Made by a program: the position numbers and the translations under genes. 32,965 nucleotides of DNA from Candidatus Wolfebacteria bacterium RIFOXYD12_FULL_48_21 (lineage in GTDB: Bacteria > Patescibacteriota > Minisyncoccia > UBA6257 > UBA9933): contig MGIW01000003.1 of assembly GCA_001793945.1 (NCBI GenBank), positions 193,630-226,594 on the forward strand, in the 5' to 3' direction. Shown piece after piece: positions 1,349 to 6,080 of the stretch (position 1 is the stretch's first letter; the number at the start of each line of letters is the position of its first letter). The notes under the pieces were generated by a model. The model was not told the DNA's origin and made no database searches. It saw only the letters and a list, made by a program, of their open reading frames with translations.

Positions 1349-1463
1349 GCGGGATTAGCTCAGTCTGGTAGAGTGCCTGAATACGACGACCGCGCCAACG
1401 GTCCCTTCATCGAGGCGCGTGTCGGACGGCAGGAGGCCGGGGGTTCGAATCCCCTGTCCCGCT
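1349..1463 (+). tRNA. Enlarged tRNA gene with a 41-nt insertion in the anticodon loop (reads as ACG if 1387-1427 is removed; isotype uncertain)
   Basis: Acceptor GCGGGAT/GTCCCGC, D-arm GCTC..GAGT, T-arm GGGGG-TTCGAAT-CCCCT, anticodon stem CCTG/CAGG. 115 nt in total; the insert folds as CGAC-CGCGCC...GGCGCG-T-GTCG. Confidence 0.75.
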
Positions 1464-5742: not shown

Positions 5743-5854
5743 AGGGCTGATGTTGATTTATTGGCCAAAGCGGTGTATATTTTTTGTTACTTGGGCGTGT
5801 AGTTCAGTGGTAGAACGCTGTCCTGATACTGATCGTATCAGCACGGCGGTCGGC

Positions 5855-6007
5855 TAAAACAAGAAAACATCAATCGAATAAGTAGTGCTTTGTGTGGGCG
5901 TGTAGTTCAGTGGTAGAACGCTGTCCTGATAAGACAGAGGTCGAAGGTCCGATTCCTTCCACGCCCACAGAGAGCAGTACTATCACGCAAGATGTTTTCT
6001 TGTTTTA
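5855..6007. repeat. 17-bp perfect inverted repeat flanking the nested tRNA
   Basis: TAAAACAAGAAAACATC (5855-5871) and GATGTTTTCTTGTTTTA (5991-6007). Confidence 0.95.
5896..5967 (+). tRNA. tRNA-Ile(GAT), intact, nested inside the interrupted copy
   Basis: GGGCGTG/CACGCCC acceptor; CTGTC-CTGATAA-GACAG anticodon arm; GAAGG-TCCGATT-CCTTC T-arm; A73. Confidence 0.92.
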
Positions 6008-6080
6008 CTCCTCTCCTTGTGCCGATAAGACAGAGGTCGAAGGTCCGATTCCTTCCACGCCCACAGAGAACAGCAGGAAT

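Follow-up and report, generated by a model that had tools for sequence, protein, structure and literature searches.

An intact tRNA-Ile(GAT) gene lies between the two halves of a second tRNA-Ile(GAT) gene in the 32,965-nucleotide stretch of Candidatus Wolfebacteria DNA analyzed here (hereafter the window). This locus probably represents a short, non-autonomous insertion element, one of a group that target tRNA genes and carry a replacement tRNA. The same architecture, which we term a nest, recurs in related genomes with a shared break point, the corresponding sites are empty in congeners, and for one tRNA the working copy has been exchanged within the genus.

An intact tRNA-Ile gene within a split tRNA-Ile gene

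The halves of the interrupted gene occupy 5793-5828 (5') and 6028-6063 (3'), and the intact gene between them (5896-5967) occupies the tip of a long, imperfect inverted repeat. ARAGORN and Rfam each make a single call at the locus, the inner tRNA-Ile(GAT) (5896-5967/8), and a genome search found no other intact GAT tRNA in the 878.7-kb genome, which has 44 tRNAs. The features of the locus are listed below, all on the + strand.

5793-5828 (+): outer tRNA-Ile(GAT) 5' half, positions 1-37; 100% identical to 5896-5931; native upstream flank GTGTATATTTTTTGTTACTT
5816-5848 (+): left-junction fold-back hairpin of the outer anticodon strand and the insert start, predicted in MFE and centroid folds
5829-6027 (+): 199-nt insert containing the intact tRNA (195 nt plus the 4-nt GATA repeat); not present in congeners G001, G002, and G003
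5855-5871 (+): left arm, 17-bp perfect inverted repeat, with an imperfect arm to 5902; shuffle test
5896-5967 (+): intact tRNA-Ile(GAT), the only one in the genome; Rfam RF00005 73.8 bits, ARAGORN, genome search
5991-6007 (+): right arm, 17-bp perfect inverted repeat, with an imperfect arm from 5960; shuffle test
6024-6027 (+): GATA, repeated at 5825-5828; target duplication or chance microhomology
6028-6063 (+): outer tRNA-Ile 3' half, positions 38-73; acceptor strand pairs 7/7 with 5793-5799

A 37-nt repeat that includes the 5' half (5792-5828 versus 5895-5931) shows 100% identity. The 3' copy matches the tRNA from position 28 onward with two mismatches (TGTGCCGATAAG for TGTCCTGATAAG), and ≈11 nt of 3' flank are common to the inner and outer copies (ACAGAGAGCAG / ACAGAGAACAG). 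Because the halves are identical to the inner gene, the nest is most likely young or has been kept uniform by gene conversion. No repeat of the 5' half's upstream flank precedes the inner copy. This flank is instead common to G002 and G003, where it precedes an intact tRNA-Ile, and the outer 5' half is therefore the native gene. All three congeners (G001, G002, and G003) have a single plain, unsplit tRNA-Ile at the same place and lack the insert.

The perfect 17-bp inverted repeat lies within arms of 48 nt (5855-5902/5960-6007) that are 79% complementary, an arm score reached by 0 of 300 shuffles, and the whole 271-nt region (5793-6063) folds with a z score of -9.3. The nested arrangement with its coordinates and sequence identity, the inverted repeat, and the GATA at both junctions had all been reported in a preliminary description of this DNA, and each was confirmed; the fold that it proposed to compute is the one given here. 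Two of its details required revision. The left junction was described as a hairpin, CTGATAC-TGATC-GTATCAG, which is present but is in fact part of a longer fold-back of the 5' half's own anticodon strand, CGCTGTCCTGATAC-TGATC-GTATCAGCACGGCG. The halves are likewise real, but the break assigned to 37/38 is unproven because GATA at both junctions allows it to be placed anywhere from 33/34 to 37/38, and 35/36, the site used in relatives, fits equally. The insert contains no ORF, no second copy of it was found in its own genome (E ≤ 0.001), and Rfam models detected no rRNA in the window.

Another tRNA gene of the window, at 1349-1463 (+), is tRNA-Arg(ACG)-like (Rfam 43.3 bits) and has a hairpin insert of ≈45 nt in its anticodon arm. 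The same gene occurs in congener G003 (L077) with a different hairpin sequence (74% identity). Because an intact Arg(GCG) is present elsewhere in the genome, this gene may represent a tRNA that is broken or has been repurposed. Two further tRNA genes of the same genome, a tRNA-Phe (G000:C6:184147-184455, L013 1677-1985) and an ARAGORN Arg(GCG) call that looks Met-like (G000:C6:33855-34131, L016 1207-1483), contain inserts of 235 and 203 nt, respectively. By eye, these two inserts look like group I introns.

Nested tRNA genes recur across the order

We searched 244 genomes of the order, all of them draft assemblies, and gathered 123 distinct tRNA-Ile(GAT) neighborhoods, 117 of which had enough flank for analysis. 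A 5' half lies upstream of the intact gene in 17 of these, a 3' half downstream in 20, and both in 9, compared with 3 and 1 half-copies in the reversed positions. For 166 other tRNAs from the same loci, a non-random control sample in that most are neighbors of tRNA-Ile or GIY-YIG genes, the corresponding counts are 3, 13, and 0. Most half-copy ends lie within one of the three tRNA loops (D-, anticodon, and T-). Position 36 is the exact first residue of six 3' halves (Ile, Ala), and position 35 is the last residue of four 5' halves (Ile, Val). When a nest is split in the anticodon loop, the break lies mostly between positions 35 and 36.

Eighteen nests were put together by eye after scripted screening and covariance models, so that this count is a lower bound and not a rate. 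All 18 have the part order 5' half, intact tRNA, 3' half, and eight isoacceptors are represented: Ile(GAT), Ile(TAT), Leu(TAG), Ala(TGC), Ala(CGC), Val(GAC), Val(CAC), and Thr(CGT). In 16 of the 18 nests, the two outer halves form a full 7/7 acceptor stem (G.T allowed), and in 14 the outer 5' acceptor strand differs from that of the inner tRNA. Two unrelated truncated copies would not yield this pattern, which is instead expected if a second gene has interrupted a displaced one, and the outer halves are thus parts of a single gene. In 12 of the 14 nests tested, the arms flanking the inner tRNA show complementarity exceeding that of at least 299 of 300 shuffles. The preliminary description had suggested a search for the arrangement in relatives and had held that plain tandem copies without conserved insert structure would speak against its interpretation. 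The congeners have plain single genes, and the more distant relatives within the order have nests with structured inserts.

In many relatives, the D-loop of the outer tRNA is replaced by two hairpins. G172 (L225) has neighboring tRNA-Ile and tRNA-Ala genes that are both nested and share the same D-loop hairpins. Homologous D-loop hairpins are also present at both the tRNA-Ile and the tRNA-Ala(TGC) loci of L228-L231 (genera g125 and g31), and in some of these genomes the neighboring tRNA is occupied on the opposite strand. A target duplication, possible in the window, was not seen in the other nests; in L035, the 5' flank is duplicated as well. A junction pattern, GGGGN{0,6}TAAGACAGAGGTC..., which proved too strict, retrieved two records from genome contigs, G172 and probably G069, each of which was already part of the sample, and no match among viral contigs.

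A second nest in the window's own genome involves tRNA-Leu(TAG). Its outer halves are of one type (type A, GCCGGGG/CCCCGGC), and its intact inner gene is of another (type B), with 57 of 82 positions identical between the two. G001 has an uninterrupted type A gene alone, G003 has an intact type A gene followed by a 3' remnant of type B, and G002 has the 5' part of type A followed by an intact type B gene. Across the four congeners, exactly one of the two alternative genes is intact in each genome, as predicted if selection maintains an essential gene and an inserted copy can replace it.

Structured modules and GIY-YIG genes are associated with the nests

Two structured modules recur in these loci. 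The D-loop double hairpin, R1, is present in 26 of the 244 genomes and in 22 genera, with up to 9 copies. Because a sample of 380 genomes from the phylum yielded only 2 matches, R1 is mostly confined to the order of the window; the covariance-model E-values behind these searches are rough. The T-loop module, R2, is a structured element of 105 positions that occurs in 58 of the 244 genomes and reaches 16 copies in one. A displaced tRNA 3' fragment forms its end, and an intact tRNA lies 7-133 nt upstream in 8 of the 10 loci read. The R2 model has 34 pairs, 17 of them changed on both sides, but these counts, like those for R1, come from small alignments and from RNAalifold structures of the same sequences and are biased toward those structures. 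Neither hairpin set matched an Rfam family in 20 related loci at permissive thresholds, at which only tRNA-like matches were obtained. A pattern for the dispersed repeat, AGTTCAGTGGGTTN{1,3}AAAGC, gave one match, and the covariance model succeeded instead.

The window's genome has 2 copies of R2 (G000:C5:82856-82971, L009, after tRNA-Arg(TCG); and L011 237-342) and 0 of R1. The window's insert has neither module, and its arms are unlike the common CCCCGCAC...GTGCGGGG ends. In G235, R1 forms tandem 179-nt arrays upstream of an intact tRNA-Phe. Arrays with a period of ≈179 nt, composed of a tRNA 5' part and the D-loop double hairpin, lie at 400-1060 of L236 (G235:C29), directly upstream of that gene, and at G234:C8:4043-4500; they look like the result of repeated insertion at a target that was regenerated each time. 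A weak R1 match in L249 (G215:C19) lies within ≈250-650 nt of the tmRNA gene, so tmRNA may also be a target.

A GIY-YIG ORF is found within the occupied tRNA in six loci (L109, L131, L132, L096, L199, and L215). The most complete of these is L199, which consists of an outer 5' half with D-loop hairpins, split between CG and C, a GIY-YIG ORF, an intact inner tRNA-Ala(CGC), and the outer 3' half. Of 30 GIY-YIG loci, 11 lie ≤300 nt from an intact tRNA, compared with an expected 5.6% (P = 4e-7). The genome of the window has 10 GIY-YIG genes, and its 199-nt insert contains no endonuclease ORF. GIY-YIG genes also repeatedly adjoin tRNA-Gln, mostly with the anticodon CTG (L198, L200, L204, L213, L214, L218, L222, and L022), the window's own genome included.

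Origin of the nested locus

We propose that the resident tRNA-Ile(GAT) gene was split in its anticodon loop by ≈195 bp of DNA, namely a pair of arms complementary to each other and, at their tip, a complete and functional tRNA-Ile gene. The outer halves would be the displaced gene, which would have lost its function, and the inner copy would be the working tRNA, with ordinary tRNA end-processing enzymes releasing it from any transcript. Insertions would be expected to survive only if one intact copy remains, because the tRNA is essential and encoded by a single gene. We further infer that these elements are mobile and that GIY-YIG endonucleases drive their movement: an element-borne enzyme would cut tRNA genes at their loops, and repair from an occupied copy would then insert the element. 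Short members such as that of the window would depend on GIY-YIG supplied in trans or would be relics. Several observations weigh against this proposal. Identical inner and outer copies with a common 3' flank would also be expected from local duplication. The inner tRNA retains the proposed cut site, and an active endonuclease would therefore need extra context to spare it. The insert of the window, moreover, has none of the ORFs, modules, and common ends of other nests, and the possible target duplication at its junctions is not seen in them. No viral contig contained the junction pattern searched for.

A mutational hot spot would involve no mobile element: tRNA genes would extrude as hairpins, hairpin-processing nucleases would cut the loop tips, faulty template-switch repair would yield partial copies, and selection would preserve one intact tRNA. 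Breaks do cluster in all three tRNA loops, and the window itself, with a left junction that is a fold-back of the 5' half and with its uniform copies and flank, has the appearance expected of such events. We nevertheless consider this explanation unlikely, since it does not account for the recurrence of the covarying modules R1 and R2, or of the conserved ends CCCCGCAC/GTGCGGGG, across different tRNAs and genera, for the difference between outer and inner tRNAs in most nests, or for the GIY-YIG ORFs inside the loci. A partial tandem duplication, in which one duplication ends and another starts in the anticodon loop, would also give the order 5' half, full copy, 3' half. One-sided partial copies are common, and the duplicated 5' flank of L035 fits as well. 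That half-genes usually meet at 35/36 with neither gap nor overlap, that the inner copy in the window lacks the upstream flank of the 5' half, and that outer halves match each other and not the inner tRNA make this origin very improbable; in its simple form it leaves both the common meeting point and the outer-inner differences unexplained.

A tRNA-carrying intron, with the outer halves spliced into a second functional tRNA-Ile, is more doubtful still. The tRNA introns of Archaea and eukaryotes have their canonical position at 37/38, the outer halves of the window would join into a perfect tRNA-Ile, and other tRNAs of this genome have putative group I-like introns. However, Rfam models for group I and group II introns match neither this site nor the loci of relatives. 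PF01974, the archaeal-type splicing endonuclease domain, has 0 matches at E ≤ 1 in the window's genome (97% complete), whereas controls were positive in all four archaeal genomes. The left and right junctions are predicted, by both the MFE and the centroid fold, to lie in separate hairpins, an arrangement that provides no bulge-helix-bulge across the exon junctions, and in many relatives the outer tRNAs would be unusable even if spliced because hairpins replace the D-loop. An assembly chimera might be suspected for a short repeat in a draft genome, but is barely conceivable given that the same architecture appears in many separately assembled genomes and that the copies and arms have diverged. 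Of the three readings offered in the preliminary description, insertion of an element carrying a rescuing tRNA copy is thus best supported, and the intron and simple tandem duplication were not upheld. The 4-bp duplication that it proposed agrees with GATA on both sides but has no parallel in other nests.

The recurrence of this arrangement for many tRNAs in related genomes suggests a genetic element of a poorly known type, one that disrupts tRNA genes and provides their replacement. A broader proposal, whose chances we regard as evenly balanced, is that the nests are traces left by a distinct class of selfish elements in this order. Such elements would break an essential tRNA gene at a fixed point of the anticodon, bring an intact tRNA, make the host dependent on them, and so substitute their own tRNA genes for those of the host. 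They would amount to a natural form of cleave-and-rescue, with a tRNA as the scaffold and structured modules in the D- and T-loops. Essential single-copy tRNA genes would be expected to be the worst insertion site, and their repeated splitting and replacement by an insert-borne copy would show how a selfish element becomes indispensable. Element-driven replacement would also account for tRNA gene turnover that is otherwise surprising in very small genomes, such as the switching of the working copy between two quite different Leu(TAG) tRNAs within one genus. Such loci mislead tRNA finders, which report the inner tRNA and either miss the outer halves or call them introns. The proposal also gives the many small GIY-YIG proteins of these bacteria a target that can be tested.

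Comparison with known systems

Our literature search found no report describing nested tRNA genes. Archaeal tRNA introns and split tRNAs resemble the window in that a tRNA gene is interrupted in the anticodon loop, but the window differs from them in its lack of a splicing endonuclease and of a predicted bulge-helix-bulge, and the functional tRNA appears to be the insert instead of the exons. A MITE-like derivative was considered and rejected: the insert has no second copy, and the GATA on both sides is unaccompanied by duplication in other nests. Assignment to three groups of mobile or inserted sequences, namely the mobile endonuclease ORFs (mORFs) of fungal mitochondria, the GIY-YIG insertions of CPR rRNA genes, and the tyrosine-recombinase integrative elements, was also rejected because the element of the window has neither an endonuclease nor an integrase ORF and lies outside rRNA genes.

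Tyrosine-recombinase integrative elements use tRNA genes as attachment sites (reviewed in PMC8371274). Both these elements and the nests have tRNA loops as targets, reconstitute an uninterrupted tRNA, and leave a displaced fragment behind; the integrative elements, however, encode an integrase and rebuild one end of the tRNA (PMC8371274). The insert of the window is, by contrast, only 199 nt long, too short for an integrase ORF and without one or any other ORF, and it carries an entire tRNA with both displaced halves flanking it. The rRNA genes of CPR bacteria carry GIY-YIG insertions that do not belong to the group I or group II introns and that lie at the tips or bases of stem-loops, according to the accessible part of one report (PMC11270868). 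These features are shared with nests of the order, and the hosts in both cases are CPR bacteria with small genomes; the same part of the report concerns rRNA genes, with no mention of tRNA and no replacement gene copy (PMC11270868), whereas the element of the window is located in a tRNA gene.

The mORFs of fungal mitochondria bring a replacement gene end to atp6, atp9, cox2, and nad3 in Glomus sp. and to atp6 in Allomyces macrogynus, and in one Glomus case the mORF encodes a GIY-YIG protein (PMC3630166). They replace the 3' end of a protein gene in fungal mitochondria, whereas the nests place a whole tRNA inside a broken tRNA in a bacterium, and the window copy, unlike mORFs, encodes no protein; an endonuclease ORF within the element is found instead in the six GIY-YIG-containing loci described above. 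Both systems involve an insertion, linked to an endonuclease, that disrupts a gene and brings in a diverged substitute for part or all of it; the native part is displaced and decays (PMC3630166). The combination of a displaced native part, an insert-borne replacement, and an empty site is present in the nests for both tRNA-Ile and tRNA-Leu(TAG).
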